A DNA stretch of 64,000 nucleotides from Moorena sp. SIOASIH (GTDB lineage Bacteria; Cyanobacteriota; Cyanobacteriia; Cyanobacteriales; Coleofasciculaceae): contig NZ_JAAHIH010000004.1 of the NCBI RefSeq assembly GCF_010671925.1, positions 859,501 to 923,500 of the forward strand. The letters run 5' to 3'. A program made the position numbers and the translations under genes. Positions 1,267-64,000 of the stretch are shown here, in pieces. Each line of letters opens with the position of its first letter. Within the stretch, counting starts at the first letter, position 1. The notes under the pieces are model-generated. The model did no database searches. It was not told the origin of the DNA and saw only the letters and a program-made list of their open reading frames with translations.

Positions 1267-1300
1267 TTGACACTCCCCGGTCTAAAGACACGGGGATTCT
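1267..1300 (-). ncRNA. right-end hairpin / 3' part of predicted omegaRNA, family A
   Basis: On the minus strand, directly after tnpB, AATCCCCG and CGGGGAG pair around GTGTCTTTAGAC, and the element ends in TGTCAA. In studied IS200/IS605 elements the RNA from this region is the TnpB guide scaffold, with the guide read from flanking DNA beyond the end. The assignment here is by position and structure only. Confidence 0.55.
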
Positions 1301-2517
1301 TCATTCAACGAGTCAACTTGCTCAATCAGGCCGGAACCAGAAAGAGTAGAGGTCGATTCTCTTGAAGCGTTTGGATCTATGATCCAGGTTCCGGTGTGCC
1401 CCACCGTACCCAAGGCTCTTTTTAGAATATTGATCGCAGCATTGTGGTCACGATCTAGTTCACATCCACATTCACAGACGTGAGTCCTAGTTGATAGCGA
1501 CTTTTTCACAACCTCGCCACATTCGGAGCAGTTTTGACTTGTGTAGGCAGGATTTACCGCAACGGTGACCCTGCCAAACTTTTTACCAAAGTGCTCTAAC
1601 CATTTTCTAAATTGATACCAACCTGCATCGTTAATAGATTTAGCTAGACAATGATTTTTAACCAGATTCTTTACTCTCAAATCTTCATAGGCGACCAGGT
1701 CGTTAGACCGGATTACGCAACGTGCCAGTCTCTTGGCATGTTCTATGCGCTACGCGCAGGCTACGCCAACACGCTGCCTACTTATTTTGAGGTGCTGCCT
1801 ACCTAGTCTATTAACGGCTTTTCTTCGGTTAGATGAGCCTTTCTTTTTTCGGGAAACCCGACGTTGATAAAACTTTAGACGCTTTTCCCCTGCTCTATAA
1901 AAACGGGGATTGGGTTCAGTGTTCCCTCTAGAGTCGGTGTAGAATTCTTTCAACCCTACATCTAACCCCACGGTGGCGTCAGCGGGTTCTAATTGTTCAT
2001 TTACATCAACAGAGATGCAAAACTGAACATAGTAGCCGTCAGCCCTTTTTACAATGCGAACCCGTTTAATTTGCTTTTTGTCAAAGCGCCACAGAACCCA
2101 AGTTCCTTTGATTTTTAGCTTCCCAATCCCTTTCTTGTCGCTGAAGGTGATCGATTTTTTGTCAGAAGAAAGTTTCCATCCTGATTGTTTATATTCAACC
2201 GATCTACAGTGCTTTTTAAATTTTGGGTAGCCTTTCTTTCCTGGTACTTTCTTTTTACAGTTTTCAAAAAAGCGAGAAATCGATGACCACGCCCTTTCAG
2301 CAGCAGCTTGTCGGGCAGTTGAGTTTAATTCATTGGCGAATGGGAACTCTTTGGCCAACACCTTAGAATACTTACTAAGGTCATATTTACCCGTTCCTTC
2401 GTTGTCCATCCATAGACGGATGCAACTATTGCGAATAAATTTGACCGTCCGAATAGCTTCGTCAATGGACTGATACTGATGGTTTTTGCCGTATGCCTTA
2501 AACTCAAGAATTATCAC
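1282..2517 (-). pseudogene. tnpB: tnpB (RNA-guided nuclease of IS200/IS605), family A, interrupted by an in-frame TAG
   Basis: Start GTG at 2517. The N-terminal part covers the wedge/REC region and the first RuvC motif (VGLDVGLKEF). The C-terminal part has the zinc ribbon (CSECGE, CECGCE) and the last RuvC Asp (DRDHNAA). The two parts are in the same frame: after KISRQR the frame reads VGVACA, a TAG at 1750-1752, then RIEHAKRLARCVIRSNDLVAYEDL (RuvC-II Glu) and onward to 1282. The TAG lies in a copy of the dispersed palindrome GCGTAGCCTGCGCGTAGCGC, so a repeat insertion broke the gene. Without readthrough both halves are inactive. Confidence 0.85.
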
Positions 2518-3749: not shown

Positions 3750-4130
3750 TTGGGTAGTTTACCCCCTACTTGATCTATTTTTGGAAATAGCTGGTGAGAT
3801 TGTGGCAATTTTGCTCTGGAAGTGTCAACGGAAGAATGTAGTCAATTGCGTCGTAGATTTGGCTACATCCTTGACCCAATCTATTGATAATTTATTTCAT
3901 TAACCCTGGGATTTTGGGCATCGAGCTGGAGTCTTGCCCAGTCAATTAACGGTTTCACGCCTATGTGGGTAAAGACAAATTATTTAGGATGGAGTAAATA
4001 ACGTTAATAATATTATCACAACTAAAGTGATTTGTCAATCATAAAATGTAGCTAGTTTGACAATTAACCCAAGCTTGATTGTGTCCCCTGTCTTGATGCA
4101 ATAGCGAGTGGGGAGGGGCTGCGTGTTAAG
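3750..4130. repeat. spacer duplicated at 5549-5925
   Basis: The upstream flank of paralogue 1 (from 'atttgggtagtttac' to 'gcgagtggggaggggctgcgtg') recurs nearly unchanged upstream of paralogue 2 at 5549-5925. The duplicated unit was therefore gene plus upstream DNA. It ends in the dispersed CTTGATGCAATAGCGAGTGG repeat. Confidence 0.75.
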
Positions 4131-4316
4131 ACAGAACCTTGGACAGGGGAGCCTTATTTCATGTAACTTAAAATTATTACGCCGCTTATAAAGACTCCCC
4201 TCTCCTTACGGTAATTCAAAGGGAACCTGCGTCCGCACCGCTGTTTGCTCCGTGGAACGCCAGTTGCTGGGGGAACGGCAGTCGCTGGGGGAACGGCAGT
4301 CGCTCATGGGGGAGAC

Positions 4317-10282: not shown

Positions 10283-10360
10283 CGCGTAGCGTGGCCATTC
10301 GCGTAGCGTGGCCTTTTGGCCAAGGCCAGGGGAAAGAATACCCCATCCCTCTTTCAGGGT

Positions 10361-10465
10361 TTAAAGTTACCGTAAGAATAGTGGAGCCTTAATAATAAAG
10401 TTTTAACCCTTTTCCTCATAGCCGACCAACCATAAAGGCTCCACTATTCTAAGGTTTCGTCTCCG
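10361..10465 (+). repeat. palindromic insert, copy 2 (loop inverted relative to copies 1 and 3)
   Basis: 16-bp perfect arms AGAATAGTGGAGCCTT (10375-10390) and its complement (10435-10450). The flanks TTTAAAGTTACCG and AAGGTTTCGTCTCCG match copy 3, but the 44-nt loop is its reverse complement. Confidence 0.75.
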
Positions 10466-10480
10466 GGGATGAATTTCCTC

Positions 10481-10724: not shown

Positions 10725-12077
10725 ATGCAAGTAGGATACTCTTACAAACTCAAGCCCAATCAACAACAAAAAGCCACGATGAATCGGTGGTTGGACATGT
10801 TGAGAGCGCAGTACAATTATCTGCTTAGAGACAGAAATGATTCTTACGATCAAGCAAAGGCTCCCAGGTTAGGTAATTACTGTGATTTAAAAAGTGGTAG
10901 AGAAGCGTGTCCGTTGACCTGTTCAGTGAGTAAAAATTACTCTGTAGGCTACCCTTGGAAGAAAAGTCAAAAAAATCCAAGACGAAGTGCCTACGAAGCC
11001 CAAAGTTCCAGTCTTCCCATACTCAAGAAAGAAAGACCTTGGTATAAATCGATCCATTCAACTGTTTTACAACAAACTCTAAGACAGTTAGATGTTGCAT
11101 TTGCCAAATTCTTCAAAGGAGAGACTGGATACCCAAAACCAAAAAGAAGGTCACGATTTAGGAGCTTCAAATATGCTCCTGGTCAGGTAAAGCTTAATGG
11201 AAACAAGATATACCTCCCAGGAATTGGATGGATGGGTTTTTACAACTCCCGCCCTATACCTGAGGGTTTTATTCTGAAATCCGTCACTGTTCGCAGAAAA
11301 GCTCGTGGGTGGTTTGCAAGTCTTCAAATCGAAGATAAATCGGTTCCACCTACTCCAGTAAAAGATAATACCGAAATTAATCCTCTGAAAGTCAAGGGCT
11401 GCGATCTAGGCATTAATAAGTTAGTAAGCCTTTCTAATGGAAAGACAATAGCTAATCCGGCTAAACAAAAATATTTTAGACGTAAATAAAGACGTTTGAA
11501 CTTGAGACATAAAGCTGCTATTCGGAAGAAAAAAGGATCCAAAAATAGAGGAAAGTCTTACGAAGCGGTTGCTTCGCTTCATGAGCGAATAACAAATAGC
11601 CGCAGTGCCTACCATTGGGATGTTGCCAATCAATTAGTTGAAGAAACAGATGCTTTAGTCTTTGAAGACCTCAATATTAAAGCAATGAAATCTCGGTGCA
11701 AACCTAGACCAAACGAAAATGGTGGCTATGTCCGCAATGGACAGTCAGCAAAAAGAGGTTTAAATAGGTCAATATCTAATGCAGCTTGGGGAGAACTGGT
11801 CAAAAAGATAGAGGTCGTGGCTGCGAAGTCAGGCATACCAGTAGTCAAAATAAATCCCAAGCACACGTCTCAAAAATGCCCAAAATGCCATCACGTCAGT
11901 AAAAGTAACAGAAAGAAAGAAAAGTTTGTCTGTACCAACTGTGGTCACTATGACGATGCTGATATCAATGGGGCAATAAACATAAAACTAAGGGGTCTCA
12001 AAAAACTGGGTATTGACCCCATCCAGCTACCTCCGGTGCGGGGGAAAGTCACGCCCACGGAGATAACAGCAACATAG
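10725..12077 (+). pseudogene. tnpB: tnpB, family D, with a single in-frame TAA
   Basis: The N-terminal part runs to YFRRK, then TAA at 11487-11489, and the same frame continues RRLNLRHKAAIRKKKGSKNRG to 12077. One CAA-to-TAA change would explain it. RuvC-I Asp (KGCDLGINKLVSL), RuvC-II Glu (LVFEDLNIKAM), the zinc ribbon (CPKCHH, CTNCGH) and RuvC-III Asp (DADINGAI) are all present. About 450 residues if read through. The intact promoter and ends suggest recent inactivation. Confidence 0.85.
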
Positions 12078-21159: not shown

Positions 21160-21194
21160 AAAGACAAACTAGACAATTGAAGAAGGCTTGCGCT

Positions 21195-21356
21195 GAAGAC
21201 AGCAGGAGTAAGTAGCTTAATATCCTGCCGAGGTTAAAGTACTATGTATCATCTGCCCAGGCACTGATCCTACAGTGAGTGCGATTGTGCTACGCACACG
21301 CTACGCGAACGCGGTAATGATACAACCCTTAACCCCGGCTAAGTCTCCGGGGTTTT
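21195..21356 (+). ncRNA. ribosomal protein L10 leader of rplJL, carrying a repeat insert
   Basis: Contains the conserved core GAAGACAGCAGGAGTAAG and ATATCCTGCCGAGGTT, where AGCAGGA and TCCTGC pair, as in the L10(L12)4 autoregulatory leader. It ends in a rho-independent terminator. A dispersed GTGCTACGCACACGCTACGC repeat (21287-21312) lies between core and terminator. Excess L10/L12 is expected to bind and promote termination; family knowledge, not shown here. Confidence 0.75.
21333..21356 (+). terminator. attenuator hairpin upstream of rplJ
   Basis: AACCCCGG, 8-nt loop, CCGGGGTT followed by T-rich DNA, 135 bp before rplJ. Confidence 0.75.
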
Positions 21357-21491
21357 AGTTTGGTTATTTGTTATCAGTCAGATCATCGACGGTTGAATAC
21401 TTATCATTCTTGGTTGAGAGTCAATTGAAAATAAATATTATTTATTTTTATTTATGAACAATTAACAATTAACCAAATAACACTGAACAAA

Positions 21492-24412: not shown

Positions 24413-24580
24413 ATGAAAACTATAAAAATGACGATACGGTTGACCGAGTATGAAAAGAAAAAACTAGAGCAAGAAGCAACCAAAAGGGGGATGAACCAAT
24501 CAGAGGTACTTAGAAGTTTGATAGCTCGTTTCCCCGTTCGCGTAGCGTCGGCTTTGCCGAATCCCAAAGACTCCGTGTAA
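24413..24580 (+). CDS. 55-residue ribbon-helix-helix protein, divergent from tnpB B
   Basis: ATG 24413 to TAA 24578. Reads MTIRLTEYEKKKLEQEATKR GMNQSEVLRSLIARF after MKTIK, a textbook RHH fold: beta strand, helix A, GMNQSE turn, helix B. The last 15 residues come from an inserted TTCGCGTAGCGTCGGC repeat. It parallels the gene at 10481 and probably binds the shared promoter region. Shorter than usual ORF cut-offs, so easily missed. Confidence 0.7.
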   Translation: MKTIKMTIRLTEYEKKKLEQEATKRGMNQSEVLRSLIARFPVRVASALPNPKDSV

Positions 24581-24634
24581 AATTCATCCCACGCCGACTT
24601 TCAGTTCGGACGTGGGGCTTCTTTTACCGGTCAG

Positions 24635-25219
24635 CTAACTAAATCGATAATAATGATTATTAGTAAAAATTATAAGATTAGTCAGCCAAGTCTTTTAATT
24701 TATCATCTCAGGGCAAAGCATCTGATTATATGCTCACGATTATAAGCTCAGGGTAGCACATCTCTGGGTTATTAAATATATCAGTCAATAAATATAATAT
24801 CATCTCTGATTGACTAATTATCAGATCCGAAATCAGGTAATTTGGAATTGGTAATTTAGAATTGGTGATTTTAAATTGGTAATTGGTAGTTTAGGATTAC
24901 CCATTACCGATTACGCTTAACCAAAAATCTAGAGACTATTTTGTAAGTGATTAACCGAACTTGAAATAAATATCACTTCATATCAATTCAGTAAAGCTGT
25001 ATCGGTGTCTTCAGCTAAACGTGAGATGCTCTAAATTGTGCCGTGTATTTCACGTTTAACTAGATTTTACGTGCATTTCTGCTCAAACAATTCGAGCAGA
25101 GGTCGCTGTCATCAGTAACCTAGAAGCAATTCTTTGCAAACGTGAATATGAACTCGTTTGCCTATAAGCCTTAGGGTTGCCTCGCGAGTAAACTGTGAAC
25201 CTCTGTATCCTAATTTAGC
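24635..25219. other. gene-free spacer
   Basis: AT-rich. Holds short GGTAATTTAGAATTGGT-like heptad runs near 24837-24900. No gene or strong promoter recognised. Confidence 0.4.
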
Positions 25220-31430: not shown

Positions 31431-32294
31431 ATGTAAGTTTTCAGGACTAATACAGATTGGTCAATTTAGGGTAATACTTGATTAAATGATAGCTCTAATC
31501 ATAACGGTTCTAATCATTAATCATATCTTCTAGAACAATAGTCTTATAGTATTTTGCTATGGATGAATTTGGGAGATAATCGGTGCGTAGACTAATCGTT
31601 CGTTTAGGAATTGCATTCATAGTCGGCTTGTTTGGGTTAATCAGCTACTTTACCACTGTCTCTGAAAACCCAGTAACTGGGGAAAAGCAGCGCATCCAAC
31701 TTTCCCCCCGTCAGGAAGTGGTGATTGGGTTACAAGCACGGAAATGGCCGCTCAACACGGTGGTCTTTACCAAGATAAAGCCCTTCAAGGATATATTTCT
31801 CAAGTGGGAGAGCAGATTGTCAAAAAGTCGGCAGCCTCTGGTTCACCTTATCCCTTTGAGTTCTATTTGTTGAGTGACCCCCGCACTGTGAATGCCTTTG
31901 CTCTACCAGGGGGACAAATTTTTCTGACTCTAGCCATGCTGAGGCGACTCAATTCAGAAGCGCAGCTGGCCGGGGTGTTGGGCCATGAGATTGGTCATGT
32001 GGTGGGACGACATGGTGCAGAACATCTGGCCAAGCAGAAACTTGGGGTAGCATTGGTTAATGCTGTTGGTATTGCTGCCAGTGATGATGCTCAGAGTGGC
32101 AGGCAAGCAGCACTACTTGCCCAAGCGATTAATCAAATGGTTAGCCTTAAGTATGGACGTGAGGATGAATTAGAAAGCGATCGCCTTGGTTTTCGGTTTA
32201 TGACACAAGCGGGCTATAACCCTAGGGGAATCGTTGAACTGATGCAAGTCCTTAACTCAATTCGACAGGGTGGGCAACCACCGGAGTTTTTTAG

Positions 32295-32686
32295 CTTCCT
32301 CCGCTCTTATGCCCCACAACGAACATGCGCAGCATGAGTGTTTAAAGTTACCGTAAGGATAGTGGAGCCTTTATGGTTAGTCGGTTATGCGTTTTGGGTT
32401 AAAACTTTTTGATTAAGGCTCCACTATCCTAAGGTTTCGTCTCCAGGGATGAATCGCGGAGCTGGAACTCTGATAAACAGGCTGAAAAACGTTATACTAA
32501 AAATAGTAGGGAAAACAAATTAAGAGCTAACCGCCACCTACTAATTAAAAATAGAACTTATTGTATTGTTCCGGCGCGGAGGGGCATCCCGTGTCGTTAA
32601 TAAAGCTTACCGAGTATCCTAAGCGATGGCTGGAGTTGGTAAGAAGCCCACACTGTAATCTTCGATTCAGTGTGGGAGTATGTCAC
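32295..32686 (+). mobile_element. tnpB-less IS200/IS605 mini-element, family B
   Basis: The right ~110 bp match the tnpB B tail and right end: GGGGCATCCCGTGTCGTTAA TAAAGCTTACCG, GGAGTTGGTAAGAAGCCCAC and ACTGTAATCTTCGATTCAGT GTGGGAGTATGTCAC. Left end GCCCCACAACG with TTAG just outside, as in IS B. It contains palindromic insert copy 3. The predicted guide would be the M48 codons after 32686. Confidence 0.8.
32341..32444 (+). repeat. palindromic insert, copy 3 (inside the mini-element)
   Basis: Arms AGGATAGTGGAGCCTT (32356-32371) and AAGGCTCCACTATCCT (32415-32430). Flanks TTTAAAGTTACCG and AAGGTTTCGTCTCC. Loop in the same orientation as copy 1. Confidence 0.75.
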
Positions 32687-32896
32687 TACTCACCCTAACC
32701 CTAGTAATCGAGTTGAACAACTCCAGAGTCTGATTGGTAAAACTTACCCTAATGGTATTCCTGCTAATCTCCAAGAGGGCCGGGAGCGGTTTGCTCGGTA
32801 TGTTAAACGGCAACGATAAGGAGTGTGGTGCTAGATTAAGCACCCTCAAGCTATACTGCGTTAGCAGTCGGTTTGACATCTCCAGGAATTATACCT

Positions 32897-60723: not shown

Positions 60724-63700
60724 GTGCCGCTTAAGTCTGTAATTTTTGCCATAGCAACTCTGCTAGGAGTGGGGAGTTTGCCAGGGTTGGCAGCCGAGAC
60801 TAACCCCAGGTTTTGGGAAATTCCAGCACAATCTCTAACTGCTCCAGAGACTATACCCTTAATGAAGTCCTCTGGTCAAAGGATTGCTTTAAAGAGTACC
60901 ACAGTTCGCGATCGCCTTAATAGTAACAGCGAGACTCTGAAAGACAACAGGTACTACTACAATCCCCATACCTTTGAGGGGAAAGCAGGGGAGCAGATTA
61001 CCATAGAACTAACCAGCGATGAGTTTGACCCTTACCTGATTCTATTTGACCTAGAAGGTAACCTAATTGCTCACGATAACGACAGTGGTGAGGGAAAAAA
61101 TGCCCGGATTACGGTTACTCTACCGACTACGGGGACTTATGTCATTTTGGCTAACTCCTACAATGAGCGAGAAACTGGTAACTATACCCTGAGTTGGAGA
61201 GCAGCCACCCCCTCAGACTTACTTCAGGCTAAAGCTGACCAAGTGTTTCAGCAAGGAATCGAACAATATGATACTAGTCAATATCAAGCTGCGCTCAAGT
61301 CCTGGCAAGAAGCCCTAGGCATTTATCGACAACTGGAAGACCGTCAGGGGGAAGCCTACTCCCTGGGCAATCTCGGGAATGCTTATCTTAGCCTAGGGCA
61401 ATACCGCAAAGCGATTGAGTTTAATCAGCAGTCTTTATCCCTATCTCGGGAACTCGAAGACCGCCAGGGGGAAGCGGCCTCCCTCAACAATCTCGGGAAT
61501 GCTTATAGTAGCCTAGGGCAATACCGCAAAGCCATTGAGTTTCATCAGCAGTCTTTATCCCTATCTCGGGAACTGAAAGACCGTCAGGGGGAAGCCAGGT
61601 CCCTCAACAATCTCGGCCTTGCTTACGATAGCCTAGGACAATACCGTAAAGCGATTGAGTTTAATCAGCAGTCTTTATCCCTATCTCGGGAACTGAAAGA
61701 CCGTCAGGGGGAAGCCAGGTCCCTCAACAATCTCGGCATTGCTTACCATAGCCTAGGTCAATACCGCAAAGCGATTGAGTTTAATCAGCAGTCTTTATCC
61801 CTATCTCGGGAACTGAAAGACCGTCAGGGGGAAGCCAACTCCCTCAACAATCTCGGAAATGCTTACTATCGCCTAGGGCAATACCGTAAAGCGATTGAGT
61901 TTCATCAGCAGTCTTTATCCATTAAGCGGAAACTGGAAGACCGTCAGGGGGAAGCCAACTCCCTCAACAATCTCGGCCTTGCTTACGATAGCCTAGGGCA
62001 ATACCGTAAAGCGATTGAGTTTTATCAGCAGTCTTTATCCCTGGCAAAGGAACTGGAAGACCGTCAGGGGGAAGCCAACTCCCTGGGCAATCTCGGGGTT
62101 GCTTACGATAGCCTAGGGCAATACCGCAAAGCGATTGAGTTTCATCAGCAGTCTTTATCCATTAAGCGGAAACTGGAAGACCGTCAGGGGGAAGCGGCCT
62201 CCCTCAACAATCTCGGGAATGCTTACGATAACCTAGGGCAATACCGCAAAGCCATTGAGTTTCATCAGCAGTCTTTATCCCTGGCAAAGGAACTGGAAGA
62301 CCGTCAGGGGGAAGCCAACTCCCTGGGCAATCTCGGCCTTGCTTACAATCGCCTAGGGCAATACCGCAAAGCGATTGAGTTTCATCAGCAGTCTTTATCC
62401 CTATCTCGGGAACTGGAAGACCGTCAGGGGCAAGCCAAGTCCCTGGGCAATCTCGGGATTGCTTACGATAACCTAGGGCAATACCGAAAAGCCATTGAGT
62501 TTCATCAGCAGTCTTTATCCATTAAGCGGGAACTGGAAGACCGCCAGGGGGAAGCCAACTCCCTGGGCAATCTCGGGAATGTTTACCATAGCCTAGGGCA
62601 ATACCGCCAAGCGATTGAGTTTCATCAGCAGTCTTTAACCCTGGCGCGGGAACTGGAAGACCGTCAGGGGGAAGCCTACTCCCTCAACAATCTCGGCCTT
62701 GCTTACTATCGCCTAGGGCAATACCGCAAAGGGATTGAGTTTAATCAGCAGTCTTTATCCCTGGCAAAGGAACTGGAAGACCGTCAGGGGGAAGCCAACT
62801 CCCTGGGCAATCTCGGCCTTGCTTACGATAACCTAGGGCAATACCGCAAAGCGATTAAGTTTCATCAGCAGTCTTTATCCCTGGCAAAGGAACTGGAAGA
62901 CCGTCAGGGGGAAGCCAACTCCCTGGGCAATCTCGGGAATGCTTATCGTAAGCTAGGACAATACCGCAAAGGGATTGAGTTTAATCAGCAGTCTTTATCC
63001 CGATTTCGGGAACTGGAAGACCGTCAGGGGGAAGCCAAATCCCTGAGCAATCTCGGCCTTGCTTACGATAGCCTAGGGGAATACCGCAAAGCGATTGAGT
63101 TTCATCAGCAGTCTTTATCCATTAAGCGGAAACTGGAAGACCGGCAGGGGGAAGCGGCCTCCCTCAACAATCTCGGGAATGCTTACTATCGCCTAGGGCA
63201 ATACCGCAAAGCCATTGAGTTTCATCAGCAGTCCTTAACCCTGGCGCGGGAACTGGAAGACCGTCAGGGGGAAGCCAACTCCCTCAACAATCTCGGGTTT
63301 GCTTACCTTATACTAGGGCAATACCGAAAAGCGATTGAGTTTCATCAGCAGTCTTTATCCCTATTTCGGGAACTGGAAGACCGTCAGGGGGAAGCGGCCT
63401 CCCTCAACAATCTCGGGAATGGTTACTTTAGCCTAGGGCAATATCGAAAAGCGATTGAGTTTCATCAGCAGTCTTTATCCCTATCTCGGAAACTGGAAGA
63501 CCGTCAGGGGGAAGCGGCCTCCCTCAACAATCTCGGGAGTGCTTACTTTAGCCTAGAGCAATACCGCAAAGTCATTGAGTTTAATCAGCAGTCTTTATCC
63601 CGATTTCGGGAACTGGAACACCGTCAGGGGGAAGCCAACTCCCTCAACAATCTCGGCCTTGCTTATCGTAGACTAGGGCAATACCGCAAAGCCATTGAGT

Positions 63701-64000
63701 TTTACAAGCAAGCCATCAAGGTTACAGAATCTATCCAAGGTGACATCAAAGTAGAAGAATTGATCACCTCTTATGCCAGTCAACAGGTAGACCTTTATGA
63801 AGGTATCATCAATCTACTGTGGAACCAAAAAGACTTTGAAACTGCCTTCAACTATGTCGAACGGGCAAGAGCCAAAGCCTTCCTCGACCAACTGGCTAAT
63901 GAGAAGATAGACTTTCGTGCTGGGGCTGACTCCAAACTCCTGGAACAGGAACAAGACCTGAAAGCTCAAATCAATGCCCTCAGCCAGCAATTAATTACCC
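60724..64000 (+). CDS. exported TPR-CHAT protein, 3' end outside window
   Basis: GTG 60724 gives PLKSVIFAIATLLGVGSLPG LAAE, a signal peptide; upstream the frame closes at a TAA. Residues ~50-155 resemble a pre-peptidase C-terminal (PPC) domain (FDPYLILFDLEGNLIAHDND SGEGKNARITVTLP). Twenty 40-residue TPR units follow (LEDRQGEANSLNNLGNAYYR LGQYRKAIEFHQQSLS). The last visible part, AFNYVERARAKAFLDQLANE KIDFRAGADSKLLEQEQDLK, normally precedes the CHAT caspase-like domain, expected beyond 64000. The frame is open for all 1,092 codons seen. Confidence 0.82.
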   Translation, partial: MPLKSVIFAIATLLGVGSLPGLAAETNPRFWEIPAQSLTAPETIPLMKSSGQRIALKSTTVRDRLNSNSETLKDNRYYYNPHTFEGKAGEQITIELTSDEFDPYLILFDLEGNLIAHDNDSGEGKNARITVTLPTTGTYVILANSYNERETGNYTLSWRAATPSDLLQAKADQVFQQGIEQYDTSQYQAALKSWQEALGIYRQLEDRQGEAYSLGNLGNAYLSLGQYRKAIEFNQQSLSLSRELEDRQGEAASLNNLGNAYSSLGQYRKAIEFHQQSLSLSRELKDRQGEARSLNNLGLAYDSLGQYRKAIEFNQQSLSLSRELKDRQGEARSLNNLGIAYHSLGQYRKAIEFNQQSLSLSRELKDRQGEANSLNNLGNAYYRLGQYRKAIEFHQQSLSIKRKLEDRQGEANSLNNLGLAYDSLGQYRKAIEFYQQSLSLAKELEDRQGEANSLGNLGVAYDSLGQYRKAIEFHQQSLSIKRKLEDRQGEAASLNNLGNAYDNLGQYRKAIEFHQQSLSLAKELEDRQGEANSLGNLGLAYNRLGQYRKAIEFHQQSLSLSRELEDRQGQAKSLGNLGIAYDNLGQYRKAIEFHQQSLSIKRELEDRQGEANSLGNLGNVYHSLGQYRQAIEFHQQSLTLARELEDRQGEAYSLNNLGLAYYRLGQYRKGIEFNQQSLSLAKELEDRQGEANSLGNLGLAYDNLGQYRKAIKFHQQSLSLAKELEDRQGEANSLGNLGNAYRKLGQYRKGIEFNQQSLSRFRELEDRQGEAKSLSNLGLAYDSLGEYRKAIEFHQQSLSIKRKLEDRQGEAASLNNLGNAYYRLGQYRKAIEFHQQSLTLARELEDRQGEANSLNNLGFAYLILGQYRKAIEFHQQSLSLFRELEDRQGEAASLNNLGNGYFSLGQYRKAIEFHQQSLSLSRKLEDRQGEAASLNNLGSAYFSLEQYRKVIEFNQQSLSRFRELEHRQGEANSLNNLGLAYRRLGQYRKAIEFYKQAIKVTESIQGDIKVEELITSYASQQVDLYEGIINLLWNQKDFETAFNYVERARAKAFLDQLANEKIDFRAGADSKLLEQEQDLKAQINALSQQLIT
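61321..63720. repeat. twenty 120-bp tandem repeats in the TPR-CHAT gene
   Basis: Every unit is exactly 120 bp with high nucleotide identity (GAACTGGAAGACCGTCAGGG and CTAGGGCAATACCGCAAAGC in most). Variation is concentrated at a few TPR surface positions. Copy number is probably unstable. Confidence 0.92.

Follow-up and report, generated by a model that had tools for sequence, protein, structure and literature searches.

How can the arms of a palindrome differ from one copy to the next and yet stay matched to each other, and how does the loop between them come to lie in opposite orientations in copies that share the same outer flanks? These questions are raised by three palindromes in a 64,000-nucleotide stretch of the genome of the marine cyanobacterium Moorena sp. 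SIOASIH, referred to below as the window. A preliminary description of the locus had reported that each arm is perfectly matched by its own partner, and this is the case at 16 of 16 positions in each of copies 1, 2 and 3. It had placed copy 2 at 10361–10465; the element is real but its exact span is 10360–10464.

Copy 2 (TTTAAAGTTACCG...GGTTTCGTCTCC, forward strand) comprises a left arm, AGAATAGTGGAGCCTT, at 10375–10390, a loop at 10391–10434 that is inverted (R) relative to the flanks, and a right arm at 10435–10450 that is the perfect complement of the left, the whole being bordered by GG on both sides (10358–10359 and 10465–10466). Copy 3 (32341–32444, forward strand) has the left arm AGGATAGTGGAGCCTT at 32356–32371, a loop in forward (F) orientation at 32372–32414 and a right arm at 32415–32430. 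Copy 1, a member of the TCAGAAGTTACCGC... subfamily, lies on the reverse strand at 2629–2733; its hairpin (2643–2718) consists of arms at 2643–2658 and 2703–2718 (AAAACAAGGCAGCCTT) and a loop at 2659–2702 that is forward relative to its own flanks, as in copy 3. A fourth, degenerate copy is found at 4129–4214 on the reverse strand (model match 37.7 bits). Both outer flanks are common to copies 2 and 3 and run in the same direction. As had been claimed, the loop of copy 2 matches the reverse complement of the copy 3 loop (score +23, versus –11 in the same orientation and –1 for the best of 2000 shuffles). With equal base frequencies, we estimate that a perfect 16-bp inverted repeat with a spacer of less than 60 nt should occur by chance about 0.001 times per 64 kb, and three flank-sharing palindromes are thus not a chance occurrence.

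The hairpin element and its insertion sites

All three palindromes are copies of a dispersed element of ~105 nt with the structure TTTGAAGTTACCGTAAG-arm-loop-arm'-CTAAGGTTTCGTCTCC. Its consensus reads T(T/C)(T/A)GAAGTTACCG(T/C)AAG, followed by an arm of ~16 bp, a loop of ~44 nt, the partner arm and CTAAGGTTTCGTCTCC; beyond these conserved ends, the flanking sequence differs from copy to copy. A sequence-only model gave 151 matches in the 9.94-Mb Moorena genome, with some places counted twice. The element is present in all five Moorena species searched and absent from 54 other relatives and from another sample of 290 genomes of the class, which shares some members with the first set. It has no genes of its own, and inspection of single-ended model matches brought to light no long, gene-carrying version that might be an autonomous parent. 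The hairpin element is a genus-specific, non-autonomous mobile element of Moorena. A literature search returned no description of it, although this does not prove that none exists; the element and its multi-copy record of arm and loop change appear to be new, whilst the proposed mutational mechanism is already known from yeast and from rRNA genes.

Evidence for mobility comes from comparison of filled and empty sites. Insertion is clean, usually with GG at both junctions where the empty site has a single GG, so that the dinucleotide is duplicated around TTTGAAG...GTCTCC. At one site, for example, the filled version reads ACTGG, then the element (TTAGAAG...GTCTCC), then GGCAAG, against ACTGGCAAG when empty. 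Junctions were analysed in clean cases only; part of the automatic comparison gave negative overlaps where host repeats had diverged. Among clean comparisons with an overlap of 1–4 bp, the overlap was 2 bp in nine (GG in eight of these), G in three, CGG in two, and GGT and GGGG in one each; at three further sites it was zero. Insertions are also seen within a tnpB gene (L351), within further copies of the element itself (L179, L265) and, in the case of L077, within a gene that, read by eye, resembles a group II intron maturase.

Many copies are located near the ends of host insertion elements, 60–290 bp upstream of a tnpB gene. Copy 2 is situated in the region upstream of the broken tnpB (IS605 OrfB-type; 10725–12077, forward strand) of its host insertion element, and in two genus mates the match to this place is confined to sequence to the left of the host insertion. 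A broken tnpB is likewise found downstream of copy 1 (1282–2517, reverse strand). The element might accordingly be taken for a part of tnpB or for its guide RNA, and 37 of the 45 copies near a tnpB gene do lie upstream of it, but for 115 copies no tnpB relative was detected within reach. We reject this reading on that ground and because the empty sites show the element to be an insertion in such hosts.

Several further observations concern insertion. Element-free versions of two hairpin-carrying host insertion-element ends are present in the window itself (32475–32688 and 24474–24638). The peptidase M48 gene at 31744–32337 is apparently truncated: its frame enters the copy 3 host repeat and stops just before the element. 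In L265, L261, L105, L300 and L179, the element has inserted into other element copies, either in an arm or at the GG of the loop. In L109 and L004 (G000 C4:1218801 and C3:919420) the same kind of host site (GGGAATAAATTCC...GGGCTAACCCC) is occupied, but the whole element points in opposite directions, indicating that insertion can go either way. A favourite target is another dispersed repeat, GCAGTCGCTCATGGGGGAAACCCCCAAGACCGCGCTGC, which is entered at its GG run at many host loci (L251, L252, L257 and L299, for example).

Which enzyme might move the element? IS607-family elements, which encode the serine transposase TnpA, insert at GG without further duplication (PMC6188088), and the hairpin element resembles them in inserting at GG, in having GG at both junctions and in causing no larger duplication. 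Moorena has many IS607 copies, and those aligned have GG at both borders. Unlike these, the hairpin element is free of genes, and its end pair was matched by none of the 20 IS607 loci examined in the genome. The shared GG borders suggest mobilisation in trans by an IS607-type serine transposase.

Loop orientation

To follow loop and arms beyond the window, element copies were extracted from five genomes by their outer-end anchors, with no requirement for matched arms. In the resulting 186 copies, the loop is forward relative to the fixed outer flanks in 102 and inverted in 84, a ratio that is not a population estimate since the choice of copies in the other species relied mainly on an inverted-loop query. 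The preliminary description had named two independent, non-flipping lineages as the outcome that would speak against its reading; no such division is seen, both orientations occurring within every common arm type. Parsimony places between 22 (whole-element tree) and 27 (loop tree) orientation changes among the 173 clearly scored copies; if branches supported below 95 are disregarded, the figures are at least five and at least two, respectively.

Particular copies make the same point. L276 (R) and L030 (F) have identical canonical loops in opposite orientations. A loop ending in CTTTATTATTAA is limited to five of 184 copies, all at one kind of host site, and is forward in L008 but inverted in L001, L002, L185 and L186. 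Likewise, rare AAAGAAGCC arms accompanied by a private loop are found with that loop forward in L074 and inverted in L274 and L275. Together with the multiple switches and the presence of both orientations in every common arm type, these shared private loops and arms argue against two fixed lineages.

On the tree of canonicalised whole elements, orientation is nevertheless clustered, with 22 changes against a mean of about 50 for shuffled labels, and copies with homologous flanks agree in orientation in 66 of 73 pairs (and in all three pairs with flank identity of 90% or more), suggesting that flips are rare and inherited. As judged from trees and flanks, then, loop orientation is inherited yet has been switched repeatedly in evolution. 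Where copies at one kind of host site disagree in orientation, most such pairs also have different arms or loops, and some of these may be separate insertions or ectopic replacements, not in-place flips.

Inverted repeats around a short segment that is found in both orientations have the geometry of a bacterial phase-variable element, in which the arms would serve a site-specific recombinase as recombination sites for inverting the loop. Such a switch should keep its recombination sites constant, whereas the arms of this element exist as about ten matched core alleles; the agreement of flank-similar copies speaks against fast switching, and a loop of ~44 nt is too short for a gene. Because the arms are not conserved, we regard a recombinase-driven switch as very improbable.

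Arm matching and its intermediates

Arms differ between copies but are mostly complementary within them. Across 67 distinct arm pairs, 88.5% of the 13 inner positions are paired, compared with 67% (maximum 72%) when right arms are shuffled, and 37 of the 67 are perfect, against a mean of one in shuffles. Taking all copies together, the inner arms are perfect in 149 of 184. The differences between copies take the form of multi-base alleles (GTGGAG, GGGTCG, GGGCAG, AGGCAG, AAGAAG and others).

How does a new allele come to occupy both arms? In three host families the states expected of a stepwise change (matched for one allele, mixed, and matched for the other or matched with overshoot) are all present, with loops and flanks nearly unchanged; each series is unrooted. 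In one tnpB-host family, L001 and L002 have GTGGAG in both arms, L185 has GGGTCG and GTGGAG, and L186 has GGGTCG in both. The same three states are seen in a second family in L201, L247/L197 and L286. In the third, L006 and L281 are mismatched, L203 is matched, and L293 is matched with an overshoot: here the right flank has changed from CTAAGG to CTTACGG. This sequence complements the left flank CCGTAAG exactly and lengthens the stem to 20 bp. We read this tract as the footprint of templated copying past the end of the arm. The preliminary description had the arms changing together; the larger set also includes copies in which a single arm has changed, and the account needs amending to one in which the arms change on one side first and are then matched, and in which flips are probably rare evolutionary events and not frequent switching. 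Its suggestion of a flip or of hairpin-templated repair is supported, the one-arm intermediates and the tract running past the arm into the flank favouring templated repair.

Strong retention of complementarity is also what selection for a functional DNA or RNA hairpin would produce if it purged mismatched copies and allowed ordinary compensatory mutation, with F and R loops representing two old lineages, and the clustering of orientation on the trees relative to shuffled labels would agree with this. The arms, however, change as multi-base blocks, first one arm and then the other, within host families whose flanks are still ~80–90% identical, and each common arm type occurs in both orientations. 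Nor would a conserved RNA loop be expected to tolerate inversion, and an Rfam search of the element returned no family at gathering score; on both counts we rejected the element as a candidate structured RNA. Selection on the hairpin is therefore an improbable explanation.

Another alternative is that dispersed copies exchange sequence by ectopic homologous recombination or gene conversion and that this alone is sufficient, the palindromic arms allowing a donor to pair either way and so to bring in both an inverted loop and new arm blocks. In 23 of the 35 imperfect copies, each arm (inner 9 nt) is identical to an allele seen in perfect copies. Such copies pair two alleles that are also present elsewhere, which is what the arrival of blocks from other copies would produce. 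The orthologues L256 and L288 have flanks that are 97–99% identical over 400 bp on each side and yet differ in the right arm by a whole block, indicating that arm blocks can change faster than flanks; the block in L288 has its match in another copy, L241, and the partner arm within L288 does not match it, indicating that ectopic conversion acts as well. Conversion yields mismatched chimeras, however, and by itself offers no account of perfect inner arms in 149 of 184 copies or of the tract in L293 that is complementary to the left flank of that same copy, nor does it predict private loop markers and arms common to F and R relatives. Ectopic conversion probably supplies new arm alleles, but as the sole process we consider it unlikely.

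At the right outer arm, the recurrent words AACAATCAGG, TTAATCAGG and AATAAACAGG replace CTAAGG without matching the left arm (L052, L072, L224, L230, L260, L282, L288, L290 and L300).

Probable template switching and comparable systems

From this pattern of variants, it is likely that template switching between the arms during replication homogenises them and occasionally inverts the spacer, with new arm alleles coming from other copies. A new allele would reach one of the arms either by mutation or through short-patch ectopic conversion, with another copy as donor. At the replication fork, DNA polymerase would then switch template between the inverted-repeat arms and copy one onto the other, restoring the palindrome, whilst an intermolecular switch spanning the loop would re-copy the loop in inverted orientation. 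On this view a single process would yield both flips and arm corrections. Both would be rare relative to the divergence of species and probably neutral for the element, as its spread depends only on the outer ends. Replication as the moment of change, intermolecular switching as the route to inversion and other copies as the source of new arm blocks are the steps that we infer.

Template switching of this kind has precedents. Between short inverted repeats it results in arm homogenisation and spacer inversion, the latter via intermolecular switching (PMC8604942), and it also gives rise to RNA hairpins and preserves them, the loop being inverted now and then (PMC8794818). The Moorena element shares several features with these quasipalindrome-type mutations (PMC8604942, PMC8794818): its arms are homogenised, multi-base changes are clustered, the stem can extend into the flank and the spacer is inverted. 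Arms become identical with flanks nearly unchanged in the unrooted series L001/L185/L186, L201/L247/L286 and L281/L203/L293, a multi-base tract past the end of the stem is the exact reverse complement of its partner in L293, and the spacer is inverted with arms intact in L276/L030, L074/L274 and L008/L001. The Moorena case differs in involving a multi-copy mobile element with a spacer of ~44 nt, in the recurrence of both outcomes and in having intermediates spread across copies and five species. In the yeast genes with inverted spacers, 2–5 bp were changed (PMC8604942); a 44-nt spacer is long beside this, which counts against the template-switch explanation.

The usual evidence for template switching between inverted repeats is a single changed site. 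The Moorena family instead offers well over a hundred parallel copies within one genome, with many more from four related species, and these include matched, half-changed and re-matched arms as well as both loop orientations. Small inversions of hairpin loops are also found in chloroplast genomes, where loops flip between related genomes. The loop flips at a hairpin in both cases, but the chloroplast examples are single loci, whereas the Moorena element is a dispersed repeat in which the arms also change sequence yet stay matched.

The interest of the family lies in its number of parallel copies and captured intermediates, the principle itself not being new. It should make it possible to estimate, for bacteria, the rates of arm correction, overshoot and spacer inversion relative to one another, and to distinguish compensatory evolution through templated copying from selection on structure. 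The family carries a warning too, namely that perfect covariation in a stem need not imply a selected RNA structure. A more speculative idea, to which we attach a fairly low probability, is that the palindrome is in effect sequence-free: spread would need only complementary arms of any sequence and fixed outer ends, self-templating would keep the arms matched, and alleles and orientation would drift. If this were true, the essential part of a mobile element would be a shape that is continually rewritten by replication and not a conserved sequence.

As a dispersed short palindrome in a bacterial chromosome that is apparently mobile and has no gene of its own, the element also invites comparison with REP elements. 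Those of the GTAG and CGTC classes have stems of 5–13 or 8–9 bp, loops of 2–20 or 4–5 nt and a tag at one end (PMC3733652). The Moorena element, by contrast, has arms of ~16 bp, a loop of ~44 nt, longer conserved ends and insertion at GG; its arm and loop sizes fall outside these classes, and although CGTC occurs in its right end, it does so away from the stem. We do not assign it to either class.

Two other features of the window deserve mention. At 61209–63788 a 120-nt unit is repeated in tandem about 20 times; its length is a multiple of three, and this is possibly a protein repeat region. At 21175–21367 there is a ribosomal protein L10 leader RNA (Rfam RF00557), with a score just above gathering.
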